Shown here: piece by piece, positions 3,068 to 43,062 of the stretch
How the letters are laid out: each line of letters opens with the position of its first letter
Numbering within the stretch: the stretch's first letter is position 1
From: Acetoanaerobium noterae
GTDB lineage: Bacteria > Bacillota > Clostridia > Peptostreptococcales > Filifactoraceae
Direction: 5' to 3'
NCBI RefSeq assembly: GCF_900168025.1
Contig: NZ_FUYN01000003.1
Span: 434,001 to 498,000, forward strand
Length of the DNA stretch: 64,000 nt
Notes under the pieces: generated by a model
Databases searched by the model: none
What the model saw: only the letters and a program-made list of their open reading frames with translations
What the model was told of the DNA's origin: nothing
Made by a program: the position numbers and the translations under genes

Positions 3068-5230
3068 CTATAGCTTGCTTAGACTGATAAACGTAGTGTC
3101 AATTTGCTTTATGCCCTGTCCTTCAAATGCTATCGTGTAGACAGTGCCTGTTTTTGCAACTACCATACCTATGCCAAATTTAGGATGCTTGATTTTTGAG
3201 CCTACAGTAATATCATCCTGACCATCAAATTTAGGTTTATCATCTTGTCCTATCTTATATTTATCCTTATACCTGTCATATAAACTCTGAGGTTTCGTCT
3301 TTTCTATTTTAGCATTCTCTTCAAAAAGACTTTCATCTATTTCAGATATGAATCTAGAGGCAATAGCATGATTTCGCCTTCCATATAGAGTTCTCTCATT
3401 TGCATAGGTAATATATAAAATTTGTTTTGCCCTCGTCATACCCACATAGCAAAGTCTTCTCTCTTCTTCCAATTGATTTTCATCTAGCATAGCTCTAGAT
3501 ATAGGGAAAATTCCTTCCTCTACTCCAGCTAAAAATACCACTGGAAATTCCAAGCCTTTTGCACTGTGAAGGGTCATCAAGGTTACAAAATCATCCTCTT
3601 CATCTATACTGTCTAAATCAGACACTAAAGACACTGAAGATAAAAACTCTTCCAAAGTTTTTTCCTCTGAATTTTGCATAAACTCCATTACAACAGACTT
3701 AAACTCTTCTATATTTTCAATCCTTCCTCTTGCTTCATCTGTATCTTCTGCCTTTAGCTCATCCACATATCTTGTGTTGTCTATGACTTTTTGAACAAAC
3801 TCAGTAAGCGGCAAAATCTCTTTCATATCCATAAATGAATTAATCATCATTACAAACTTATTTAAGGTAGTTTTTACCTTAGTGGATAAATCAAAGCCAG
3901 ACAAATCATGAAGTAATCCAAACAAGCTCTCCCCAGTGACTAATGCTCTTTCTTCTAGTTTTTCTAGAGTCTTAGCTCCTATACCACGTTTTGGCACGTT
4001 TACTATTCGTTTTAAAGCCAAATCATCTAGAGGGTTTTGAACCAATCTAAGATATGCCATTATGTCTTTGATTTCTTTTCTATCGTAGAACTTCAGCGAG
4101 CCAAATATCTTATATGAAATCGAATGCTTAATAAGAGCCTCTTCAAGTGCTCTTGACTGAGCATTTGTTCTATATAAAAGAGCAAAATCTCTTAGATTTC
4201 TATCTTCTTCCTCTTGTCTTTTTTTAATTTCTCTAGCTATAAAATTAGCTTCATCTTTTTCATCATAGGCTTTATGAAGCTTGATTTTTTCGCCTTCCTT
4301 CAGCTGAGTCCAAAGTTTTTTGTTTTTTCTTCCTAGATTTCTTTTTATTACGCTGTTTGCTCCATCTAAAATCACTTCAGTAGAACGATAATTTTGCTCT
4401 AGCTTGACTACAAAAGCATCCTTATAATCCTTTTCAAAATCTAGAATGTTTGCTATGTCTGCGCCTCTCCATCCGTAAATAGACTGGTCATCGTCTCCTA
4501 CTACGCATAGATTTTTATGCATCTCACTTAGAAGGTTTATAAGCACATACTGAGCATGATTGGTATCCTGATACTCATCGACCATGACATATTGAAATTT
4601 TCTTTGGTAAAAATCTCTCACAAACTCATCAGTTTTTAAAAGCTCTACTGTTTTAAAAATAAGATCATCAAAATCTAGTGCATTATTTGATTTTAGTTTT
4701 CTTTGATATAAGTCATAAACTTTAGAAATCTTTGATAATCTAAAATCATTAAAATATCTAGCCTCGAATGCCTTTGGGTTAAGTAGCTTATCTTTAGCCC
4801 CAGAAATTGCAGAGAGGACACTGCTTGGTTTAAAGCTGTCCTCTCTTAGGCCGCATTCCTTTATACACTCTTTAATTAAGCTTAGCTGATCCTGAGTATC
4901 ATAGATTACAAAGGATCTATTGTAGCCTATTCGTTCTATATCTCTTCTTAATATCCTAACGCAAAGAGAGTGAAAAGTGCTAATCCACATATCCTTGGCT
5001 CTATCTCCAATTAATGAATTAACCCTTTCCCTCATCTCTTTTGCGGCTTTATTTGTAAATGTGATAGCCAGCAAAGAATAAGGTGATATTTTTAAATCCT
5101 CTATCATATGAGCTATCCTATACGTTATTACTCTAGTCTTACCTGAGCCCGCACCAGCTAAAATTAGCAAAGGTCCTTCGACTCTTGTAACCGCTGATAG
5201 CTGGTCTTTATTTAAGCCCGTCAAATCCAT
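3068..5230 (-). CDS. pcrA: ATP-dependent DNA helicase PcrA (UvrD/Rep family)
   Basis: Superfamily 1A 3'-5' DNA helicase involved in nucleotide excision repair, replication restart and removal of RecA filaments. All helicase motifs are present: Walker A AGAGSGKT at about residues 25-32, the Walker B region VDEYQDTN, SIYGWRGAD, the conserved TLHSAKGLEF and the motif VI segment CYVGMTRAK. The last 45 residues (GSKIKHPKFGIGMV and following) form the small Tudor-like domain typical of PcrA that contacts RNA polymerase. At 720 residues it has normal length. A GGAGG ribosome site precedes the ATG. It lies 12 bp after the nitroreductase-like gene and heads several downstream genes. Confidence 0.97.
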   Translation of the reverse strand: MDLTGLNKDQLSAVTRVEGPLLILAGAGSGKTRVITYRIAHMIEDLKISPYSLLAITFTNKAAKEMRERVNSLIGDRAKDMWISTFHSLCVRILRRDIERIGYNRSFVIYDTQDQLSLIKECIKECGLREDSFKPSSVLSAISGAKDKLLNPKAFEARYFNDFRLSKISKVYDLYQRKLKSNNALDFDDLIFKTVELLKTDEFVRDFYQRKFQYVMVDEYQDTNHAQYVLINLLSEMHKNLCVVGDDDQSIYGWRGADIANILDFEKDYKDAFVVKLEQNYRSTEVILDGANSVIKRNLGRKNKKLWTQLKEGEKIKLHKAYDEKDEANFIAREIKKRQEEEDRNLRDFALLYRTNAQSRALEEALIKHSISYKIFGSLKFYDRKEIKDIMAYLRLVQNPLDDLALKRIVNVPKRGIGAKTLEKLEERALVTGESLFGLLHDLSGFDLSTKVKTTLNKFVMMINSFMDMKEILPLTEFVQKVIDNTRYVDELKAEDTDEARGRIENIEEFKSVVMEFMQNSEEKTLEEFLSSVSLVSDLDSIDEEDDFVTLMTLHSAKGLEFPVVFLAGVEEGIFPISRAMLDENQLEEERRLCYVGMTRAKQILYITYANERTLYGRRNHAIASRFISEIDESLFEENAKIEKTKPQSLYDRYKDKYKIGQDDKPKFDGQDDITVGSKIKHPKFGIGMVVAKTGTVYTIAFEGQGIKQIDTTFISLSKL

Positions 5231-32962: not shown

Positions 32963-33295
32963 TTAAACAATCTGGTTGAAAAAACAGCTAGTTTCACCAG
33001 TATGACAAGTAGGGCCTTCTGGTAGGGCTTTTATAAGTACTGTATCTGAGTCACAGTCTAAATACAGCTCTTTAACCTTTAAAATATTTCCTGAGGTTTC
33101 CCCTTTTTTCCAGAGTTTATCTCTGCTTCGGCTATAAAAATATACACACCTAGTCTCAAGTGTTTTACTATACGCTTCCTCGTTTGTGTATCCTAGCATC
33201 AGCACCTGATTTGTATTATAATCTTGAACTATTACTGGAACCAATCCTTTGCTAAAATCAACCATAGCTTTATCCCACCCTAACTGATATTTCAT
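32963..33295 (-). CDS. hisI: Phosphoribosyl-AMP cyclohydrolase
   Basis: Third step of histidine synthesis: opens the adenine ring of phosphoribosyl-AMP. The 110-residue protein is HisI only. Zinc and magnesium sites are visible in LDCDSDTVL and [13 protein letters not shown], and [14 protein letters not shown] is the usual substrate loop. The ATG at 33295 overlaps the end of hisF by 26 bases; a second in-frame ATG at 33265 preceded by GGGTGGG would give a protein closer to the common family length. Both starts imply translational coupling to hisF. Confidence 0.94.
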
Positions 33296-34028
33296 TTTGT
33301 GATAGATACTTTTTTACACTTCCTATGCTATCTTGATTGTAGTGAAATATAGAAGCAGCTAAAGCTCCAGTAGCTCCTGTTTTTTCAAATACCTCTAAGA
33401 TATCTTCTTTTGAACCACAACCTCCAGAGGCTATCACTGGAATATTTACAGCCTTTGTTACTTTATCTAGAAATTCAGTATCATATCCACTCTTTGTTCC
33501 GTCACTGTCCATACTAGTTAAAAGTATCTCTCCAGCTCCTAAATCTGCCGCCTTTTTTATCCACTCTAAAGCATCCATTCCTGTCTGAGTAGTACCTCCA
33601 TTTATTACTACTTCTTCTCTGCCATTTATTTTTTTGGTATCTACTGCTACTACTATGCATTGACTTCCAAATAGCTTGGCTCCATCTGTTATCAGCTTAG
33701 GATTTTTCACTGCACTGCTGTTAATCGATACCTTATCCGCTCCTTTTAAAATCACATTTCTCATATCCTCAACTGTTGAGATTCCTCCTCCCACAGTAAA
33801 TGGAATAAATATTGATTTTGCGACTTTTTCCACCATTTCAAGCATAGTTTTTCTAGCTTCTAAGGTTGCTGATATATCTAAAAATACAAGCTCATCTGCT
33901 CCATCCATGTAGTATTTTTGAGCAAGCTCAACTGGATCTGCTATAGTTTTTAAGCCTTCAAAATTAATACCTTTAACTACCTTTGAATCCTTTACATCAA
34001 GACATGGGATAATGCGTTTATATGCCAT
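33270..34028 (-). CDS. hisF: Imidazole glycerol phosphate synthase, cyclase subunit
   Basis: TIM-barrel cyclase subunit of IGP synthase, 252 residues. With ammonia supplied by HisH it converts PRFAR to IGP and AICAR. Catalytic aspartates lie in [15 protein letters not shown] and in [15 protein letters not shown]. Phosphate-binding loops VGGGIST and [11 protein letters not shown] are in place. It overlaps hisA by 11 bases and hisI by 26, showing a tightly packed operon. Normal length and no missing motif. Confidence 0.96.
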
Positions 34029-34752
34029 AACTTCCTCCTAATTCAAATGCTTTTTCCAAATCTATTCTGCCACTGTAAATGGACTTGCCTAGTATTGCTC
34101 CTGCAAGCTTATTATCTTTTATACTCTCTAAATCTTCATAGTCAGCTACTCCACCTGATACTATTATCTCGCCACTGTAGATTTTGCTTAGCTCTAGAGC
34201 TAAGTTAATATTTGGCCCCAAAAGTGTTCCATCCTTTGTGATATCTGTTAATACTATTCTTCTTACATTTAGATTTTCCAGCTTACTCGTGATATCATAT
34301 ACCAGTGCCTCTGAACCATCTAGCCAGCCTCTAGTCATCAGCACTTCACCTTTCACATCAAGAGCTGCAACTATTTTATCTTTATATATTCCTACTGCTT
34401 TTACAAATAGCTCAAAATCTTCTGCTATCATGGAGCCAATAACTACAGAGTCTATCCCAAGCTCTAGAGCAGTTTCTATATCTTCAATAGTTTTTATTCC
34501 ACCTCCTAGCTGAATCTTTTGCCTTTGTGATGTTTTCAATTTACATATGTCCTTTATTATCCCCATATTTGCAGACTTATCCCCAAGAGCCCCATCTAAA
34601 TTCACTATATGGACTTCTTCTGCTCCTAGATTAAGAAAGTTATTCACAATAGCAACTGGATTTTCCCCAACTACTGTTTCTTTTGCAAAATTTCCTTGAT
34701 AGAGTCTTACCGCTCTTCCCGATTTAATGTCTACAGATGGTATAATTTTCAT
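34018..34752 (-). CDS. hisA: ProFAR isomerase (HisA)
   Basis: TIM-barrel isomerase that converts ProFAR to PRFAR in histidine synthesis, 244 residues. The catalytic base aspartate is in the N-terminal [18 protein letters not shown] and the acid in [17 protein letters not shown]. The phosphate loops [13 protein letters not shown] and [12 protein letters not shown] are intact. It overlaps hisH by 29 bases at its start and hisF by 11 at its end. HisA homology to HisF is visible along the whole length but the order of genes and the signature loops separate them clearly. Confidence 0.95.
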
Positions 34753-35350
34753 AGCACATCTCCTTAAAATTTCTTAGTATCTTAAGTCCTGAGTTTCCAC
34801 TTTTTTCTGGGTGAAACTGAAGTCCATATATATTGTCCTTTGCCACTATAACTGGCATATCTTCTGTATAGCTACAGATGCCTACGACCTCATCTTTTTG
34901 TTCATATGCTCTATATGAGTGAGCAAAATATCCGTCAAACTTATCGCCTAAGCCTCTAGTGAGCCTAGTGCTTTTTCTTAGCTCAATTTTATTCCAACCC
35001 ATATGAGGAGTCACCACTGCCTTATCTAGCAAATCCACTTTCCCTGAAAAAAATCCTAGCCCAGTGCTTAGCCCTTCCTCAGTCCCAGAGTCATAAAATA
35101 TTTGCATTCCCAAGCAAATCCCCAGTATCTTCTTTGTCTTTGCAAACTCTGATATGACCTCTTTAGTAAAACCTTTAGCTTTTAGATTTTCTATTGCAGT
35201 CTTAAATGAGCCAACTCCAGGGATAATCAGTCCAGAAATTTCACTTAACTGAGCTGGACACGTTATTACCATTGATTTTGCTTCAATGTTTTCAAGGGCA
35301 CTTTCTACACTTTTTAAATTTCCTGCATTGTAATCTAAAATTCCTATCAT
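34724..35350 (-). CDS. hisH: Imidazole glycerol phosphate synthase, glutaminase subunit
   Basis: Class-I glutamine amidotransferase that supplies ammonia to HisF, 208 residues. It starts MIGILDYNAGNLKSV, has the oxyanion strand IIPGVGSF, the nucleophile cysteine in GICLGMQIFYDSG, and the His-Glu pair in GLQFHPEKSG. The hisB stop codon directly precedes its ATG, and it overlaps hisA downstream. All catalytic residues are present. Confidence 0.96.
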   Translation of the reverse strand: MIGILDYNAGNLKSVESALENIEAKSMVITCPAQLSEISGLIIPGVGSFKTAIENLKAKGFTKEVISEFAKTKKILGICLGMQIFYDSGTEEGLSTGLGFFSGKVDLLDKAVVTPHMGWNKIELRKSTRLTRGLGDKFDGYFAHSYRAYEQKDEVVGICSYTEDMPVIVAKDNIYGLQFHPEKSGNSGLKILRNFKEMCYENYTICRH

Positions 35351-35935
35351 TTATTCCTCCACCTTTCCTTTGGTCGAAAATATTTCTCCATCCACTACTG
35401 TTATTGCTTGTTTTATTGCTAATCCTAAGCTTTTAAAAATAGCCTCTGTTATATGATGGTCATTCTTCCCTTTTAATACATCTATGTGAATGGTAGATTC
35501 GCTGTTATTTGCGATAGCCCTTAAAAACTCAAGTGTCATATCCGTATCGTAAGCTCCGATTTTTTCTCTTTTAAATTCATAGTCAAAATCTAGATAAGCT
35601 CTACCACCCATATCTATAACTGTTCTAACTAGAGCTTCATCCATAGGAATAATTGCGTTTGCATATCTATTTATTGAGGTATCCTTTATCATCATTTTTA
35701 AAGTCTTGCCTAAAGCTATTGCAGTATCTTCGATTGTATGATGAGTATCTACAAACAAGTCTCCTTCGACTTTTATATAACCATTCAAGTTCGCATATCG
35801 TCCAAAGGTTATGAGCATATGGTCGAAAAATCCAATTCCAGTATCTGATTCTAAGCTTTTATACTCATCAGCCCTGGTATCTAAAAGAATTTCGATTTTT
35901 GTCTCCGATGTGAGTCTTTTATACTGCCCTCTCAT
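35351..35935 (-). CDS. hisB: Imidazoleglycerol-phosphate dehydratase
   Basis: Dehydrates IGP to imidazole acetol phosphate, 194 residues, the monofunctional form without the histidinol-phosphatase domain of enterobacterial HisB. Manganese-binding histidines are in the two hallmark motifs GFFDHMLITFGRY and DTHHTIEDTAIALG, repeated in the second half as KGKNDHHITEAIFKSLG. The frame is open ten codons further upstream, but the ATG at 35935 follows AAGGGG. Its start overlaps the end of hisC by 17 bases. A separate histidinol phosphatase (HisJ/HisN) is not in this window. Confidence 0.95.
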   Translation of the reverse strand: MRGQYKRLTSETKIEILLDTRADEYKSLESDTGIGFFDHMLITFGRYANLNGYIKVEGDLFVDTHHTIEDTAIALGKTLKMMIKDTSINRYANAIIPMDEALVRTVIDMGGRAYLDFDYEFKREKIGAYDTDMTLEFLRAIANNSESTIHIDVLKGKNDHHITEAIFKSLGLAIKQAITVVDGEIFSTKGKVEE

Positions 35936-36944
35936 TTTGATATCCCCTTCTTTCTTCTTTAGCAAGTGATATAGCTCTTTTTATCTCAGATACCAGCTTC
36001 ACATTGTCCTCTATATTGCCTGCAGTTATTCTTATCCCATCTTCAAATGAACGAATTAGGATTCCTTTTTCTAGTAAATATTCATAGATATCTGCTGAGT
36101 ACTTTGTTTTTATATAGATAAAATTAGCTGAGCTTTCATAAATCTCGGTTTCATCATCATTTATTTCAGCTATAAGTGAAGAATATAAATCATCTCTTGA
36201 GCATTTCACTTCTTTAATGTATTTTGCAATAAGCTTAGGATAACTCAGTATCTCAGTAGCTATATTTTGGGTCAAGCTGTTCACATTGTATGGAGAGCGT
36301 ATCTGCTCTATTTTATCTATATTCTTTGAATTGGAGCCTAAGAAGCCTACTCTTATCCCTGCCAGCCCTAAGGCTTTTGAGCAAGTTTTGGTTATTACAA
36401 GATTGTCGTATTTTGATATCAGGTCAGACACGCTTTGATTGTAAAAATCCATGTAGGCTTCATCTACTATAACAGTTCCCCAGAATGTTTTAACCAGCTG
36501 CTCTACATCTGATTTCAAAAAACCTTTGCCAGTTGGATTGTTGGGATTTGAAAAAACTATAACTGATGCCATATTTATTCTTGCAGCATTTATAAGGTCT
36601 TCGAGCTTCATGGTCTTAACCTTAATCAAGCTAGCATTATATTTTTTAGAATATACCTCATACATTGAAAAATCTGGATCAAAGCAAACTACAGTTTTAG
36701 ACTGAGCAAATACTGAAAATGCTAAATCTATAAGCTCATCAGAACCATTTCCTGCAACTAGGTTTTCATAAGGAATTTTGGAATACTTGCTATATGCCTT
36801 TCTTAGCTTAATAGCCTTTGCATCAGGATATCTATTTATACTCACTTTGGAAAGTACTGACTTTTGTATGATTGAAGCTATTATCTCTGCTTCATAATCC
36901 TTAGCTCTCTCATTAGCATCTAGCTTTAATATATTACTCATCAT
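35919..36944 (-). CDS. hisC: Histidinol-phosphate aminotransferase
   Basis: PLP-dependent class-I/II aminotransferase converting imidazole acetol phosphate to histidinol phosphate, 341 residues. The N-terminal LDANER corresponds to the LNxNEN-like family start; NGSDELIDLAFSVF forms the PLP phosphate site; VIVDEAYMDF has the cofactor aspartate; and TKTCSKALGLAGIRVGF carries the Schiff-base lysine. The ATG at 36944 has GGAGG seven bases before it and overlaps the end of hisD by 11 bases. The position right after hisD supports HisC over other aminotransferases of the family. Confidence 0.95.
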   Translation of the reverse strand: MMSNILKLDANERAKDYEAEIIASIIQKSVLSKVSINRYPDAKAIKLRKAYSKYSKIPYENLVAGNGSDELIDLAFSVFAQSKTVVCFDPDFSMYEVYSKKYNASLIKVKTMKLEDLINAARINMASVIVFSNPNNPTGKGFLKSDVEQLVKTFWGTVIVDEAYMDFYNQSVSDLISKYDNLVITKTCSKALGLAGIRVGFLGSNSKNIDKIEQIRSPYNVNSLTQNIATEILSYPKLIAKYIKEVKCSRDDLYSSLIAEINDDETEIYESSANFIYIKTKYSADIYEYLLEKGILIRSFEDGIRITAGNIEDNVKLVSEIKRAISLAKEERRGYQNERAV

Positions 36945-38220
36945 CTGAAAACCTCCTCAAAATCGAATTTGCATGTCCATCTAAATTTTCTGCCTTTGCA
37001 AAACAAGCTATATCCTTATAAATTTTTTCAAGCCCTTCTTTGCTTGCTTCTATATAGTTACTTCTTTTCATAAAACTTTGAATCCCTAGAGGCGAAAAAG
37101 CTCTAGCGCTTCCATTGGTTGGAAGTATGTGATTCGGCCCAGCCATATAATCTCCTAGTGGTTCCGGTGAGTATTTTCCTGAAAAAATACATCCAGCATT
37201 TATAAGGCTGTCAGTAAATTTTTTATCTTCTAACAAAACCTCAAGGTGCTCTGGAGCTATTTGATTAGCTATATCTATGAGTTCTTGCTTAGTATCACAT
37301 ACTAGAATTGCCCCATAGTTTTTAATTGCTTCAGATGCAATTTTAGATTTCGGAAGCTTTGATAGCTGAACGCCCACTTCATTTGATACAGCCTCTGCTT
37401 CTTTATCGCTTAGAGTTAGTAGTATAGATGATGCTAGCTCATCATGCTCTGCCTGTGAAATCAAATCTGCCGCTATATAGCTTGGATTTTGATTTCCATC
37501 TGATACTATTAGTATTTCACTAGGTCCAGCTATCATATCTACATTTACAGCTCCATAAACTAATTTTTTTGCAACTGACACATAGATATTTCCTGGCCCT
37601 GTAATTACATCTACCTTTGGAATAGACTCAGTACCATATGCAAGAGCTGCTATTGCCTGTGCTCCTCCGACCTTGAATATTCTATCTACCTTGCAAAGCT
37701 TTGCAGCATATAGCACTTCAGGGTTTATCCCTCCATTTTCATCGCAAGGAACTGTCATGATGATATTTTTAACCCCAGCTGCTCTTGCTGGTATGGCATT
37801 CATAAGTACCGATGATGGATAGGCAGCCTTGCCCCCTGGTACATAAATTCCTGCTGTTTCTATAGGTATATATCTAGTTTTAGATACGATTCCTTCCTTT
37901 TCGTAAATAAAATCCTCAGGCTTTTGAGCTGATTGAAATTCCCATATATTCTCATATGCCTTATCTATAGCTTTTTTAACATCTTTATCAATTTTATTTT
38001 CGGCCTCGCTTAGCTCTATACTGCTTACTTCTAGGCTTTTTAAATCTACCTTGTCAAACTGCTTTGCATAGCCTATTAATGCATTATCTCCGTTTTGTCT
38101 TACCTTGTTTATTATTTCTCTAACAGTATCTAGCACCTTATCTTCCATATCTGCTTGCCTAGAGCTTATTTTATTTAGGAAAGCTTTTGCTTTTTCAGAA
38201 TTTAGCTTAAATATATTCAC
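36934..38220 (-). CDS. hisD: Histidinol dehydrogenase
   Basis: Zinc-dependent NAD enzyme that makes the last two oxidations from histidinol to histidine, 428 residues. Recognisable parts are GIYVPGGKAAYPSSVLMNAIPA, ITGPGNIYVSVAKKLV, the zinc segment SQAEHDELASSILLT and GPNHILPTNGSARAFSPLG. The frame is open nine codons upstream, but the GTG at 38220 has GGAGG eight bases ahead and gives the normal N terminus. The GTG overlaps the hisG stop region by 14 bases, so these two are translationally coupled. Confidence 0.96.
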   Translation of the reverse strand: MNIFKLNSEKAKAFLNKISSRQADMEDKVLDTVREIINKVRQNGDNALIGYAKQFDKVDLKSLEVSSIELSEAENKIDKDVKKAIDKAYENIWEFQSAQKPEDFIYEKEGIVSKTRYIPIETAGIYVPGGKAAYPSSVLMNAIPARAAGVKNIIMTVPCDENGGINPEVLYAAKLCKVDRIFKVGGAQAIAALAYGTESIPKVDVITGPGNIYVSVAKKLVYGAVNVDMIAGPSEILIVSDGNQNPSYIAADLISQAEHDELASSILLTLSDKEAEAVSNEVGVQLSKLPKSKIASEAIKNYGAILVCDTKQELIDIANQIAPEHLEVLLEDKKFTDSLINAGCIFSGKYSPEPLGDYMAGPNHILPTNGSARAFSPLGIQSFMKRSNYIEASKEGLEKIYKDIACFAKAENLDGHANSILRRFSDDE

Positions 38221-38830
38221 AGCGCTCTCCTCCTCTTTGTAATTCATTTATCAAGCTATCTATCATTGCAAATTTTCTGCTTGATATTGCATTAGATACT
38301 ACTAGCTTTGCATTAATATCAAATAGCTCCTCATAAACTACAAGTCCATTTTCTTTTAAGGTTCTGCCTGTTTGAACTATATCTACTATGATATCAGCTA
38401 TTCCAGTTGCCACAGCAAGCTCCACAGAGCCTTGAAGATAAATGATTTCAGCATCAATTCCTTTATTTTTAAAAATATCCTTCGCTATATTTGGGTATTT
38501 AGTTGCTACAGTTTTATACTTAACTTTTCCTTTGTTTTCAGTAGGTCCAGCTATTACCATCTTGCATCTTCCAAGCTCTAAATCCATTACCTCTTTTAAG
38601 TTGCTTTTGCACTCTAGAAGTACGTCCTTGCCCACCACACCTATATCAGCCATTCCCATATCTAAGTACTGAGGTACATCTTGAGATTTTGGAAGAAGAA
38701 TTTCCCAGTTTCTTAATCTATCTGTTAATCTTAAGCTTCTTTTGTTTTGACTCATAGTGCCTTGATTTTGGTATATTAAATCTAAAAAATCCTCCTGAAG
38801 CCTTCCTTTTGCAAGTGCTATTCTTAGCAT
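38207..38830 (-). CDS. hisG: ATP phosphoribosyltransferase, short form
   Basis: First enzyme of histidine synthesis, condensing ATP and PRPP; the usual point of feedback control. At 207 residues this is the short form: it ends right after the catalytic domains and lacks the C-terminal regulatory ACT-like domain. LRIALAKGRLQED, GMADIGVVGKD and the PRPP loop VELAVATGIADIIVDIVQTG are intact. Short HisG normally needs the HisZ subunit, and no hisZ is present in this operon or window. The ATG at 38830 follows AAAAGGAGAG. A terminator lies only 25 bp upstream, at the end of a peptide-coding leader. Confidence 0.95.
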   Translation of the reverse strand: MLRIALAKGRLQEDFLDLIYQNQGTMSQNKRSLRLTDRLRNWEILLPKSQDVPQYLDMGMADIGVVGKDVLLECKSNLKEVMDLELGRCKMVIAGPTENKGKVKYKTVATKYPNIAKDIFKNKGIDAEIIYLQGSVELAVATGIADIIVDIVQTGRTLKENGLVVYEELFDINAKLVVSNAISSRKFAMIDSLINELQRGGERCEYI

Positions 38831-38854: not shown

Positions 38855-39041
38855 AAAAAAAGCCACCTTGGACTATAAATCCAAAATGGCTCTTGTGCGT
38901 ACTAAAAATAAAATATATCTTATTTTCGCCATTATTAGAAGTTAGCCCTTTCAAAACACGAACAGGGCTGGACCAATAACGGCACATACCCTTCTAATAA
39001 TGATGATGTAGTTGTACAGTTGTAAGTATTAGAAGGTTCAT
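38855..39041 (-). promoter_or_regulatory. his operon attenuator: competing RNA helices and terminator
   Basis: Pairing segments on the minus strand in transcript order: A CCTTCTAATA (39036-39027, inside the leader peptide), B TATTAGAAGG (38999-38990), C GCCGTTATT (38983-38975), D CTTCTAATAATGGC (38941-38928), E GCCATT (38890-38885, inside the 5' terminator strand), F the 3' terminator strand. A:B, C:D (9 bp with one G-U) and the 12-bp terminator E:F (38861-38891, then seven U) can all form together. The alternative is B:D (9 bp) with the end of D pairing to E (AATGGC/GCCATT), which would break the terminator. A small AGCCCT/AGGGCT hairpin sits in the C:D loop. This resembles the A-F scheme of enterobacterial his leaders. 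No T-box sequence is present. Confidence 0.8.
38994..39041 (-). CDS. hisL: His leader peptide (15 residues, three His codons)
   Basis: A short ORF encoding MNLLILTTVQLHHHY. It begins at ATG 39041, eight bases after a strong AAGGAG ribosome site (39050-39055), and ends at TAG (38994-38996). Three successive CAT histidine codons lie next to the stop, a composition very unlikely by chance directly ahead of hisG. Translation of this peptide would let the ribosome measure charged tRNA-His: stalling at the CAT codons would change which of the downstream RNA segments can pair and so decide between reading on into hisG or stopping at the terminator at 38855-38891. The peptide itself probably has no further function. 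Confidence 0.85.
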   Translation of the reverse strand: MNLLILTTVQLHHHY

Positions 39042-39090
39042 TAGTATCTCTCCTTAGATATATTTTTAATCGTTTTTTTATTTGATAGCT

Positions 39091-39119
39091 ATTATATTTT
39101 ATACCGAATAAAAATGCAA
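39091..39119 (-). promoter_or_regulatory. Promoter of the his operon
   Basis: On the minus strand TTGCAT, 17 bases, TATAAT. The predicted start lies about 40 bases before the leader-peptide ATG. Confidence 0.75.
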
Positions 39120-39147: not shown

Positions 39148-42100
39148 CTATTTCTGCTCTGTTAATTCTATAAATTTTCTTAGCACAGAGCTTACTTCAG
39201 CTCTTGTAGCTATTCCTTTTGGATCAAATTTGTTGTCAGGTTTTCCTGATAATATGCCTGACATTTGGATGGCTTTTACAGCTTCTGTTGCCCAGGCGCT
39301 CATTTCATCTGTATCAGCAAAATTATTTTCTTCATTTAGCTTCGTTAAATCTATATTCATTGCTTTAATATAGTTTAGTAGCATAACTGCCATTTGCTCT
39401 CTAGATATTTCCATATCTGGCGCAAACTCTTCTGAGGATATTCCATTTACTATTCCAGAAGTATTTGCCCACTGGATATACGGAAGGTAGTAAGCATCTG
39501 TTTTTACATCCTTAAAATCCGTTGAATCAAATCCAGTTAAATCTGCTTTTGCTAGTTTTCCTAGAACTGTTACAAACATTCCTCTAGTCATTGGCATATT
39601 TGGAGAGAATTTGCCATCTCCTGTTCCACCAAATAAGCCTCTTTGTATTACGAAATCTATATCTGATTTCGCCCAGTGATTTTCAGTATCTGAAAATACT
39701 GGAGCGTTAGTGCTGTTTTGCTCAGTAGTTTGTAGTGGTAGTTCTCCTTGTGCTGGTGGTGTTTGATTTACTGGAGCTTTAGTTGGCTCTTTATCGTCCT
39801 TGTCATCTTTATTAGATGAGCTACCGCTAGAAGAACCATTTCCACTGTTATTGCCTGAATCTCCATTATTACCATTATTTCCATTACTACTATTTATTAC
39901 TGTCATCTTGCCATTTGTATAGCTTATCTCATAGCTATCAGAATTTGACACTTCTGCTTCTGATATGGATATTACATACTCGCCTACGGCATTAGTATCT
40001 GTAGCACTTGTAGTAATTACTGGCTCTTTAGTTAGAATGTCTGAGCCTACTAGGCCATTAACTTTGTAAGTTAGGGTTGGCATGGTGCTTCCTTTTACTA
40101 CATTTAGCTTATCATCAGCTTTTATATTAAGAGCTTTTTTGCTTATATTTATTGATTTAGTTGCAAAGGTTTCTAGATAATTTATATCTGTTTGTTTTTT
40201 TGCAGTTATGGTTACATTTCCAGCTTTTTTTATTGTTGCTATATCACCATTTATACTTAGTACTTCAGCATCTGAACTTTCAAATGATATATCTCCTTCA
40301 CCACTTCCACCTGTAGTAGCTAGAGTAAAGGTTTCATCTCCATAGGTTTTTAGTCCAGTTTCATTTACACTTAGCTCATCTTGCTCTAGCTTTTTATTTA
40401 TTACAACTTTTTTAGCTGCATTTGTTCCTGAAATTGAAGCTGGATTTGATTCCTCTATCCTAAGTATATTTTCATTAGGAGAAAGTACTGAGCTTACATT
40501 TTGTGCTCCAAATGCCTGAGTTTGTGATGAAATTATATTTGCATTTTCGGGGGTAAGAATCCTTCTTGTTTTTCCTAATATAATTCCATTTGAGTTTGGC
40601 TCAACATCTAATACCAGCAATGCTATCCTTGAACTTTTTGCTATGATTTTTCCATCATTGATGGATAGAGTTTTGTTTGCTAGTATGCAAGGTAAATTTT
40701 CAGTTTCTATTTTTAAAAAACCTGCTCCATCCACTATTAAGTTGTCATCTGCTAATATTCCTAATTTACCGGCAGAAATATGGCTTATTCCCTCAAGTTT
40801 AACAGTAGCTTCCTTTGGAAGCTTAATAGCGTAGTCATATACACTCCCTATTAATATATTTCCTAAAGTTAGAACTTTATTTATACTATCAAAGCTATAT
40901 CCATCAGTTTCTAATGTGGCATAAGCTTTGTAGCTTCCATGAGATGGATCTGTTGTAAAGTCGAGTGAATCAGTTACTAAAAAAAGCCTACGGCCTTGTG
41001 AGTAAAATGCTGAAGGCTCTCCTGCACCAGTTACTATCTCACATAGTCCATCTCCAGTTACATTTTTTACAAAATTCTCATCAGTTGATGATGGGAAAAC
41101 AATTCTTTCCTCATTTACTATATCTCCACTACCACTAATACTATCTGTGATTGTTAGTTTTGCATTATTTTCTATACTTGAATTATTTATTAGTTCCTTT
41201 ATAGTGATATCACTTAAGGTGATTAGTTTAGCTTGACCTTCTACTATTACCTTAGTATCAGTTCCTTCTAAGCTTCCATTTAGAGTAAGCTCTCCACTTC
41301 CTCCTAGCTTTAGCTCCCCTTTTGTATGGATATCTCCTACAGCATTTTCTCCGGTAAGTATTATACTCGTAGGTTCACTAAGCTTTAAATCTCCAGCAAA
41401 GCTGGCATTATTTAGTCTAAGTGTAGCAGGATTTGTTACATTTGCTACCTCATAAGATACGGTTCCATCTCCTAGTACATCATGAGAGTTTAGCCTAGTT
41501 ACTTGCACATCATTTACATATACATCATAAATGGTAGTTGCCTTGATATATTTAATGTTTTCAAACTTTCCATTTACAGTAGCCCAATCCTCAGCGCTAG
41601 TGTAAATAGTAGGGTTACTACCATCTTTATTTTCACTGATTTCGTAGTAAACCGGTGGCTCAGTTATAGTTACTGGTGTACTTGATGGATAGATAGCTCC
41701 TGAGCCTCCTGATGCAAGAAATCCGCCTCCGTCTATAGTGATAGAGCCTCCTGAAGTTTTTACTCCATATACTCCATAACCTGATGTTGGGCCAGGATTT
41801 CCTGCTCTAGCTTCGACACTTCCAGTTCCTAGTACTTTTAGGTTAGAGTTATATAGATAAATTCCAGAACCATATTTTCTATCTGCAGCATCTGCAGATT
41901 CTACGATTAGTTTTCCATTTACCTCTATATTAGCATTAAGGGCATCTATTCCTTTATTATTTCCACCATTTCCAAACCTGGCAAAAGCACTTACCATCGC
42001 TTCATTCCCTATGGTCATCTGACCAAATAAATGAATTCCTGTGTTTTGCCCTCCGTTATTTGCTCGTCCTATCAAATGGGCCCTGTCTGTAACAGTTGCA

Positions 42101-43062
42101 TTTCTAAGAATAGCAATACCACCACCAGAATAGTTTGTAAACTCTGTTTCTTTTGCAAAAATACCTTCTAGTTCTACATCATCTTGAACCCTTAAATCGC
42201 CATCAGCAAGAAGTCCTCTGAACAGTCCTCCAAATGTCAGCTTGCCATTTCCTGATACTGTCGTATTACCCTTAATATAAGCTCCCATACTTCTCTGAGG
42301 AGAAAACTCTCTCATATCAATTGTGTTATTCCCGTTAACCACTATATTTAAATCGCCTCTACAGAAGAGTCCATAACGAGCCGCACTTAAATCCAAATTT
42401 CCGTAGTCTATCTCATCACTTGGTGCTGCCTTTATAATATTTGCTCCATTTAATGTAAGTGTGCAAGTACTATTATCATAGCTCCAGCCTATACCACTAG
42501 TAGTAAATACTGCTTCTCCGCTTACTACCTTTGTAGGTCCTATCCACAGCTCTGTGACTGGGTTTGTTCCTCTAGTTGACATGAGGATAGGAGTAGTTCC
42601 TACTAGTACTGTTATATTCGGTAGTGAAACACCACTATCTAATACTAGCTCATCTCCTATGCTATCTGTAGCTGGTAGCTTTGCTTTGTAGGTATAGCTA
42701 GCACCACTTTGAGATGAATCAAAGGTAGCTGATTCACTATTTGCCTCATCCAGCTCCCAGGTTACATTTTCTATGGTGATTTCTATGGCTGAGCCTGTAG
42801 TTGTTTCTTGATATGAGGCAGTAAGTGAGCTTGGCATTTTTTCTACTACCTCTCCTTCAGTGCTATCTACCTCTACAGTGATGTTTTTTACATCATCTGC
42901 TAGCTCTTCAAAGGCTACTATCCTCTTTTGATTTTCTTCATTCTCTGCAAATACTGCTGGAATACTAACTTGGAATATCATAGTAAGGGCAAGTAGCATT
43001 GAGAGAACTTTTTTCTTCTTATTTGCTTTTAGTTGAATTGTTTTCATTTGACTTGTTTTCAA
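39148..43062 (-). CDS. Large SLH-domain surface protein
   Basis: Exported cell-wall protein of 1304 residues. A signal peptide with a basic N terminus and hydrophobic core (KVLSMLLALTMIFQVSIPAVFA) is probably cleaved after AVFA. Next is a beta-rich Ig-like part to about residue 155, then a long repetitive beta-strand region (about 165-900) with many GNGxLxxxG-type turns that looks like a beta-helix or carbohydrate-binding scaffold. An MBG-type domain follows (ISKKALNIKADDKL, about 1000-1090), then a low-complexity N/G/S linker, and three SLH motifs at the end (NHWAKSDIDFVIQRGLFGGT, AYYLPYIQWANTSGIVNG, SAWATEAVKAIQMSGILSG) that anchor it to wall polymer. TTG start after AAGGAGG. The binding target is unknown. 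Confidence 0.88.
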   Translation of the reverse strand: MKTSQMKTIQLKANKKKKVLSMLLALTMIFQVSIPAVFAENEENQKRIVAFEELADDVKNITVEVDSTEGEVVEKMPSSLTASYQETTTGSAIEITIENVTWELDEANSESATFDSSQSGASYTYKAKLPATDSIGDELVLDSGVSLPNITVLVGTTPILMSTRGTNPVTELWIGPTKVVSGEAVFTTSGIGWSYDNSTCTLTLNGANIIKAAPSDEIDYGNLDLSAARYGLFCRGDLNIVVNGNNTIDMREFSPQRSMGAYIKGNTTVSGNGKLTFGGLFRGLLADGDLRVQDDVELEGIFAKETEFTNYSGGGIAILRNATVTDRAHLIGRANNGGQNTGIHLFGQMTIGNEAMVSAFARFGNGGNNKGIDALNANIEVNGKLIVESADAADRKYGSGIYLYNSNLKVLGTGSVEARAGNPGPTSGYGVYGVKTSGGSITIDGGGFLASGGSGAIYPSSTPVTITEPPVYYEISENKDGSNPTIYTSAEDWATVNGKFENIKYIKATTIYDVYVNDVQVTRLNSHDVLGDGTVSYEVANVTNPATLRLNNASFAGDLKLSEPTSIILTGENAVGDIHTKGELKLGGSGELTLNGSLEGTDTKVIVEGQAKLITLSDITIKELINNSSIENNAKLTITDSISGSGDIVNEERIVFPSSTDENFVKNVTGDGLCEIVTGAGEPSAFYSQGRRLFLVTDSLDFTTDPSHGSYKAYATLETDGYSFDSINKVLTLGNILIGSVYDYAIKLPKEATVKLEGISHISAGKLGILADDNLIVDGAGFLKIETENLPCILANKTLSINDGKIIAKSSRIALLVLDVEPNSNGIILGKTRRILTPENANIISSQTQAFGAQNVSSVLSPNENILRIEESNPASISGTNAAKKVVINKKLEQDELSVNETGLKTYGDETFTLATTGGSGEGDISFESSDAEVLSINGDIATIKKAGNVTITAKKQTDINYLETFATKSINISKKALNIKADDKLNVVKGSTMPTLTYKVNGLVGSDILTKEPVITTSATDTNAVGEYVISISEAEVSNSDSYEISYTNGKMTVINSSNGNNGNNGDSGNNSGNGSSSGSSSNKDDKDDKEPTKAPVNQTPPAQGELPLQTTEQNSTNAPVFSDTENHWAKSDIDFVIQRGLFGGTGDGKFSPNMPMTRGMFVTVLGKLAKADLTGFDSTDFKDVKTDAYYLPYIQWANTSGIVNGISSEEFAPDMEISREQMAVMLLNYIKAMNIDLTKLNEENNFADTDEMSAWATEAVKAIQMSGILSGKPDNKFDPKGIATRAEVSSVLRKFIELTEQK

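Follow-up and report, generated by a model that had tools for sequence, protein, structure and literature searches.

What governs expression of the histidine operon in Acetoanaerobium noterae, and does its leader stand alone or belong to a wider class of RNAs? The operon lies in the window, i.e. the whole 64,000-nucleotide stretch of DNA analysed here, and comprises eight genes in the order hisG-hisD-hisC-hisB-hisH-hisA-hisF-hisI. Its leader had been described in a first-pass annotation as a histidine attenuator read by the ribosome. To our knowledge, leader-peptide attenuators are usually treated as unrelated inventions made gene by gene. The sequence comparisons and folding calculations reported below make it very probable that this leader is a transcription attenuator in which translation of a small peptide serves to sense charged tRNA-His, and that one RNA scaffold serves with runs of His, Tyr or Phe codons. 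The direct basis comprises the parts of the leader, their conservation and covariation, homology to other leaders, and the match between codon run and downstream gene.

Organization of the his operon leader

All leader elements are located on the minus strand between window positions 38855 and 39119 (Table 1), and every part named by the first-pass annotation, i.e. the promoter, the Shine-Dalgarno sequence, the 15-codon ORF and the segments CCTTCTAATA, TATTAGAAGG and CTTCTAATAATGGC, was found there. A strict consensus scan called no promoter, and the -35 hexamer matches the consensus at three of six positions. The three consecutive CAT codons are present but do not abut the stop as had been stated; one Tyr codon precedes the TAG, and the run thus ends one codon short of the stop. 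The TAG, the Tyr codon before it and the final base of the His run all fall within segment B (B1). An intrinsic terminator with a U run indeed separates the leader ORF from hisG, with 17 pairs by the terminator scan rather than 12 bp, and with 24 nt rather than 25 between the end of the U run and the hisG ATG (38830). By hand count, the segment equivalent to B2 of the relatives described below forms ~4-5 bp with C. The 214-nt leader folds with a z-score of -6.3 relative to its own shuffles.

Among the operon genes, hisD, hisB and the hisF-type ORF were assigned by Pfam, and hisC, hisH, hisA and hisI by eye from their translations. The 5' neighbour of the leader is the gene for a 1304-residue S-layer-homology protein (39148-43062). 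The hisG gene is short (207 residues) and the operon contains no hisZ (L152, L155). The two matches to the HisS/HisZ Pfam family in this genome both score above the hisS cut-off and below the hisZ cut-off; an attenuated HisS paralog (see below) might stand in for HisZ. Elsewhere in the window, RF03531, an sRNA described from Clostridioides difficile, matches above cut-off on the minus strand at 3398-3494.

Table 1 Features of the his operon leader and operon in the window.
Feature	Position	Strand	Details and evidence
Promoter	39091-39119	minus	TTGCAT at 39114-39119, 17-nt spacer, TATAAT at 39091-39096
Shine-Dalgarno sequence AAGGAGAG of leader ORF	39048-39055	minus	Read from sequence
Leader peptide ORF, 15 codons, MNLLILTTVQLHHHY and stop	38994-39041	minus	QLHHH-x-stop kept in sister species
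Three CAT His codons (putative sensor)	39000-39008	minus	Runs also in most independent covariance-model matches
Segment A of the first-pass annotation (CCTTCTAATA)	39027-39036	minus	Not kept in sister species
Segment B / B1	38990-39000	minus	B:D pairing with two compensatory double changes
B2-equivalent (AGAAGGGTATG)	38985-38995	minus	Alignment to family
Segment C (GCCGTTATTGG)	38973-38983	minus	Folding
Hairpin between C and D (AGCCCT..AGGGCT)	38944-38969	minus	Folding, alignment
Segment D (CTTCTAATAATGGC)	38928-38941	minus	Competing partner of B, C and E
Segment E, 5' arm of terminator	38880-38892	minus	Alignment, terminator scan
Segment F and U run, 3' arm of intrinsic terminator	38855-38872	minus	Alignment, terminator scan
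hisG, first operon gene	38210-38830	minus	PF01634 and TIGR00070
hisD, hisC, hisB, hisH, hisA, hisF, hisI	32963-38247	minus	ORFs

Conservation upstream of hisG

Over 913 bases, the stretch comprising hisG and the leader shares 96.4% identity with that of A. noterae NZ_CP154629. A single further genome was found for the genus, that of a sister species (G001; the window's genome is G000), whose HisG is 61% identical to the window HisG. Its leader encodes MIFKSKPMFTQLHHHS followed by a stop, with promoter hexamers TTGCAA and TAGAAT. Aligning these three sequences shows 13 B:D pairs to be retained, two of which have undergone compensatory double changes (U-A to A-U and A-U to G-C), and the terminator of the sister species is the same as that of the window with its letters changed. 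The retained QLHHH-x-stop ending, the B:D covariation and the terminator argue for the ribosome-read attenuator that had been proposed. The C:D helix is reduced in the sister species to ~CGCCA/UGGCG plus a neighbouring hairpin.

HisG was found in 235 of the 393 members of the order, and 78 stretches upstream of hisG were sampled from these, i.e. that of the sister species and 77 among the places listed, all outside the large family f10. A small ORF, defined as one of at most 45 codons containing HHH, is present in 31/78. These fall into four families, f1 (1/1), f8 (2/2), f4 (15/17) and f2 (13/15), together 31/35, and there is none among the 43 stretches from the seven families f3, f5, f6, f7, f9, f11 and f12. 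One f2 miss (G106) reflects a stretch ended by a contig end, and the leader of that genome was found on another contig (L218). The peptides typically end in QLHHHHRLKGL-stop. In 30 of the 31 cases the next long ORF is best matched by reference HisZ (the frame in L122 is short), and in the 31st, the sister species, hisG follows directly; TIGR00443 (hisZ) was the best NCBIfam match of all six next ORFs tested, in each case below its cut-off. The HisG scan of named genomes yielded one distant locus.

Two further observations concern this gene neighbourhood. Genome G028 has one leader before a hisZ-like ORF and another before hisD (L202, L122), and many HisG matches in f10 genomes belong to reading frames of ~550 residues, a length that would suit a HisZ-HisG fusion.

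Distribution relative to HisR and T-boxes

The premise of the first-pass annotation that T-boxes are the usual control of his genes in Firmicutes is an oversimplification. According to PMC9413887, HisR is the usual Clostridial his repressor, and most of the Eubacteriales genomes covered there carry it. Using a strong match to PF01371 (E<1e-20), the family to which HisR belongs, as a proxy, HisR-type proteins were detected in 46/79 genomes. Such matches occur in 4 of the 32 genomes with a leader (G011, G202, G235 and G241) versus 42 of the 47 without, where leader status was taken from the HHH-ORF reading and G106 counted as lacking one; the two Acetoanaerobium genomes, G000 and G001, have none. 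The his leader and HisR are thus near-exclusive.

The absence of a T-box from the leader itself, as had been claimed, was borne out: RF00230 gave no match there, either with Rfam at the gathering threshold or at E up to 10 on 601 bases, and the 18 T-box matches of this genome, of which 16 exceed the cut-off, all lie elsewhere, none at his. T-box, PyrR-type and enterobacterial his leader candidates were rejected for this site, with no Rfam gathering match and weak others only. Were the element a constitutive terminator behind a fortuitous His-rich ORF, with no regulation, neither the conservation and covariation of the leader, nor its near-exclusion with HisR, nor the codon-gene match described below would be expected, and we give this explanation almost no weight.

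Alternative pairings in the family

Twenty-four leaders of families f2 and f4 (21 distinct rows, alignment A4) share the segments B1 (CATCATAGATT, which includes the run codons), B2 (GGGTTTGTA, which in many leaders reaches up to the stop), C (TTCATAGATGCAAGCTC), D (GGGCTTGAATCTATGATGG), E and F. Three structures were drawn on A4: C:D + E:F, with 95.4% of cells paired; B2:C + inner hairpin + D:E, with 87.4%; and B1:D + B2:C + inner hairpin + E:F, with 89.7%. When the partners were slid against each other, at most 49.2% of cells paired, a comparison that favours the three structures as they were drawn from one row (L085). The D:E helix alone is paired in 98.2% of cells. The inner hairpin pairs in 69% only, and one B2:C pair fails in 10/21 rows. 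The number of double changes supporting B2:C + D:E lies within the range of shuffled alignments, 57 of 500 of which reach the observed count.

In these relatives eight columns of D take part in both B1:D and D:E; therefore, B:D cannot take part in the antiterminator there. As the run codons are part of B1, a ribosome stalled on them would cover it. The first-pass annotation had noted as an open point that a stalled ribosome may mask segment B in part; in the family this masking would be the design itself. The conserved pairings are mutually exclusive and placed such that the position of the ribosome decides between them, as seen in A4 and in the mask folding described below. On this sequence and folding evidence the family anatomy matches the enterobacterial plan, with B2:C + D:E as the probable antiterminator in the 24 relatives, and the likeness to the enterobacterial A-F logic that had been pointed out is upheld. 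A variant is seen in L141 and L145, where C:D is itself a hairpin with a U run, a second terminator-like hairpin lies downstream, and B is complementary to the 3' arm of the C:D hairpin; the polarity is plain by eye.

We infer from these elements that the attenuator works, and in which direction. A ribosome delayed on the His codons would allow the D:E antiterminator to form in the nascent RNA and the operon would be read, while a ribosome that reaches the stop codon would leave C:D to form, E free to pair with F, and transcription to stop. In terms of the family segments, stalling on the run would mask B1 and permit B2:C + D:E; a ribosome at the stop would mask B2 and favour C:D plus the terminator; and with no ribosome B1:D (with B2:C) would tie up D, so that termination would be favoured.

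Folding with a ribosome mask

RNAs were folded up to the end of E either whole (no ribosome) or with an assumed ribosome footprint. In the two masked states folding began 12 nt downstream of a codon's first base, the codon being the first of the run (stalled) or the stop codon (at stop). A first set comprised 29 leaders after four of different layout were dropped. The median probability that E pairs upstream was 0.80 stalled, 0.27 at stop and 0.42 with no ribosome, and the stalled value fell to 0.43 when the segment from the run to 12 nt past the stop was shuffled. Stalling gave the higher probability in 24/29 leaders relative to the stop position and in 27/29 relative to no ribosome. A later set contained 78 of 81 His or aromatic leaders (3 were dropped), with stalled above stop in 68/78: 25 of 28 aromatic leaders (medians 0.82 vs 0.43, and 0.39 with no ribosome) and 43 of 50 His leaders (0.63 vs 0.43, and 0.44). 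Thus 5/29 and 10/78 leaders go in the wrong direction or do not gain on stalling, and E is not clearly freer without a ribosome than with one at the stop.

The minimum-energy folds of L085, L124 and L148 are B1:D + B2:C with no ribosome, B2:C + D:E when stalled, and C:D at the stop. L126 passes through the same three folds and additionally forms C:D with the ribosome at the last His codon; for L149 the first two folds are seen, and C:D at the last codon; and L146 forms C:D even in a stall at the first codon.

The window leader illustrates this behaviour poorly, with a switch that appears weak by folding. Its probability that E pairs upstream is 0.25 with no ribosome, 0.27 stalled and 0.07 at the stop, the A. 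noterae leader gives 0.20, 0.26 and 0.07, and the sister species runs the wrong way between the two ribosome positions (0.01, 0.23 and 0.38). It is here that the exact wiring in Acetoanaerobium, which we infer, has to be weighed. The first-pass annotation had opposed A:B + C:D + terminator to a B:D + D:E antiterminator. A:B is not supported as a general part of the leader: segment A, and hence the helix, is absent from the sister species when aligned with the window. The B:D + D:E antiterminator, excluded in the 24 relatives by the shared D nucleotides, is possible in Acetoanaerobium, where the two helices abut exactly, without overlap, in both the window and the sister species. For the window leader, upstream pairing of E reaches a probability of 0.33-0.37 if the unmasked RNA starts 7-11 nt past the first base of the first His codon, against 0.05-0.10 for starts at 13-27 nt; the profile of the sister species lacks the 7-11 nt peak. 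A ribosome on the first His codon frees only part of B. The best D:E structure lies 3.9-6.6 kcal/mol above C:D in the window at six ribosome positions, and D:E structures lie ~2-4 kcal/mol above the best fold in the sister species. The folding program gives, it is believed, no credit for flush stacking of abutting helices, and such stacking of B:D on D:E could help this wiring. Taken together, we hold the wiring of the first-pass annotation to be less likely than not for Acetoanaerobium, although in this genus B:D stacked on D:E may take the place of B2:C + D:E.

Codon-swapped homologues

A covariance model, R2, was built from A4 with no Acetoanaerobium sequence. It matches the window leader with 48.3 bits (E 4.5e-7 in 86,621 bases), and a sensitive run over 34 genomes returned two places in the window's genome at E<=0.5, namely the window leader and C4:153967-154121 (L185:501-655; E 7.9e-6). 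The latter encodes MTKQILSQLNKLHHHR and a stop directly before a HisS paralog; A. noterae also has a second leader before its HisS paralog. R2 matches occur in 16/391 genomes of the class and 78/393 of the order. Many matches of an earlier model, R1, are plain terminators, and 4 of the 11 listed are leaders (L046, L047, L048 and L055).

A total of 101 R2 places, none used in building the model, were classified: 17 of 20 from the class run, 20 chosen from 71 of the sensitive run (E up to 0.39), and 64 from the order run that had not been read before (all E<=0.001). A script chose the leader ORF by its Shine-Dalgarno sequence first and then by enrichment in H or Y/F/W, and typed the next ORF against reference proteins. 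This yielded 53 His leaders, 28 aromatic leaders and 20 that are neither, a choice biased in part by codon enrichment, yet none of the 11 leaderless matches was called His or aromatic. The 64-place subset comprises 36 His, 21 aromatic and 7 neither, two of these without a leader (L266, L268). The other R2 matches set aside as leaderless are L190, L191, L194, L195, L196, L198, L199, L203 and L204. Separately, L194 looks antisense to a leader and the call for L197 is doubtful; eight places are of Phe or His type by eye only (L179, L200, L201, L247, L248, L251, L254 and L258).

The His leaders precede hisZ (20), hisS types (19), the substrate-binding protein of an amino-acid ABC transporter (7) and hisD (2), with no gene read in 2 cases and an unclassified one in 3. 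The aromatic leaders precede BrnQ-type carriers (15), NSS-type transporters (9), ABC permeases (3) and one unclassified gene. Thus 48 His leaders stand before his-type genes and 27 aromatic leaders before transporters with no crossovers (48, 0, 0, 27), counts from related genomes that are not independent draws. Among those tested, the transporters belong to PF05525, PF00209, PF02653 and PF00497. The peptides MITILNTINLNKNYYYYYR and MNNNTTFTFINFNTYYYGYYR precede NSS transporters, MNNLLNIKNSFFFNSKFR an ABC permease and MKNMSLTKKAQFNLYYYSYYR a BrnQ-type carrier, each ending in a stop. A BLAST search of a BrnQ-type leader against plasmids gave no match.

Such leaders predict substrates. Tyr- or aromatic-rich leaders point to tyrosine or phenylalanine as the likely substrate of the NSS-type transporters (L170, L172, L222, L224, L225, L228, L233, L261 and L267) and of the BrnQ-type carriers, which are annotated as branched-chain (L171, L187, L238, L240, L244, L245, L246, L249, L250, L256, L257, L259, L260, L262 and L263). 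Two PF03553 proteins form a pair: that of L229, above the NhaC cut-off, follows a YYYYYR-stop leader, and that of L242, below the NhaC cut-off, an HHQHHH-stop leader. By their matching attenuators they are predicted to be candidate tyrosine and histidine permeases, respectively.

In 32 aromatic leaders (31 distinct) aligned to R2, the run codons still lie in B1. The structures are paired in 94.0% of cells (at most 47.5% when slid), and B1:D in 93.5%, figures that are favoured by the fitting of this alignment to the R2 model. Two codon positions alternate between C-G and U-G, and 13/31 leaders have no letters in most of B2:C. Complementarity of the run to downstream sequence, scored without alignment, is 22.4 for aromatic (n=28) and 22.8 for His leaders (n=53), compared with 15.4 and 14.7 for shuffled runs; the run beats 95% of its own shuffles in 17/28 and 38/53, respectively. 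A change from CAU to UAU replaces C by U in the first base and would keep B1:D as U.G, which offers a simple route to a new specificity. The occurrence of the same RNA design with Tyr or Phe codons before transporters suggests a general, re-codable amino-acid sensor.

Relationship to orphan RNAs and known systems

Of 13 family loci compared with the Rfam family RF04312 ('trpB ncRNA motif'), 11 match, with scores of 38.8-56.3 bits that fall short of its 59-bit cut-off; the A. noterae leader and the second leader of the window's genome are not matched, nor is the window leader. Across 196 genomes there is no match above cut-off and 9 have one at E<=0.001, of which five places fall on leaders of the R2 family and four do not do so convincingly. 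In the three alignments shown, the matches lie over C:D and E:F. In PMC11109978 the motif (SRC-39-1), with over 900 representatives reported, is ranked as a strong riboswitch candidate, found mostly before an amino-acid-type ABC transporter and with an anti-terminator placed in the right shoulder of P1, which corresponds to D. The two hairpins of the motif line up with C:D and E:F. The differences are that it is an orphan riboswitch candidate and that loci of the R2 family score below its cut-off.

These matches and that ranking would suit a metabolite-binding riboswitch or a protein-bound attenuator in which the small ORF is incidental. We judge this very unlikely, since leaders have conserved the ORF, the codon run and the match of run to gene, since the runs form part of a pairing arm, and since the authors of the motif, in PMC11109978, themselves left a classic attenuator possible. 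We propose instead to merge the two. The reading that we moderately favour is that the window leader belongs to a large homologous, codon-swappable family of Clostridia attenuators, whose specificity would be set by the B1 codons and whose targets change along with them (his operon, hisS and His ABC uptake; NSS, BrnQ-type, NhaC-type and ABC transporters), and that the trpB motif would correspond to the 3' portion of that family, responding to charged tRNA by way of a ribosome instead of to a ligand. No record of the trpB motif as a leader-peptide attenuator was found in the open-licence PMC literature.

RF02863 (Enterococcus sRNA 2410) matches 6 of 13 family loci, with the BrnQ-type L256 and L260 above cut-off. 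It resembles the R2 family in this sequence-model match and differs in being catalogued as an sRNA, not a leader.

His leader peptides were seen earlier in bacilli (PMC2965389), and the His attenuator of the Acetoanaerobium his operon is already in print. Table 3 of PMC9413887 predicts His-leader RNA attenuators before the his operon in five Eubacteriales genomes, of Lutispora, Acetoanaerobium, Clostridioides, Intestinibacter and Terrisporobacter, and for this operon only; that of Acetoanaerobium is very likely the same element as the window leader. The main text of PMC9413887 does not contain 'hisS', and its four mentions of 'tyrosine' concern the HisR paralog and its gene cluster. The wiring and the spread to hisS, uptake genes and Tyr/Phe transporters yielded no print record in the open-licence PMC literature.

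The A-F pairing scheme is that of the enterobacterial his leader (RF00514), with which the family shares the His codon run, alternative pairings of this style and a terminator. The R2 family differs in having B1:D as an additional state, where the run codons are themselves paired. RF00514 has no match at the window leader (Rfam gathering threshold; E up to 10 on 601 bases).

The T-box (RF00230) likewise uses one scaffold for several amino acids, senses charged tRNA and precedes genes for biosynthesis, uptake and tRNA ligases. In contrast, in the R2 family it is the translating ribosome that would read the tRNA, and the site gives no T-box match. If the reading proposed here is correct, a homologous, codon-swapping family would exist as the ribosome-reading counterpart of the T-box, with a simple evolutionary path from CAU to UAU to UUU, one base at each step, and pairing partly kept by G.U. 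Substrates would become predictable for uncharacterised transporters, and an orphan riboswitch candidate would receive a testable answer.
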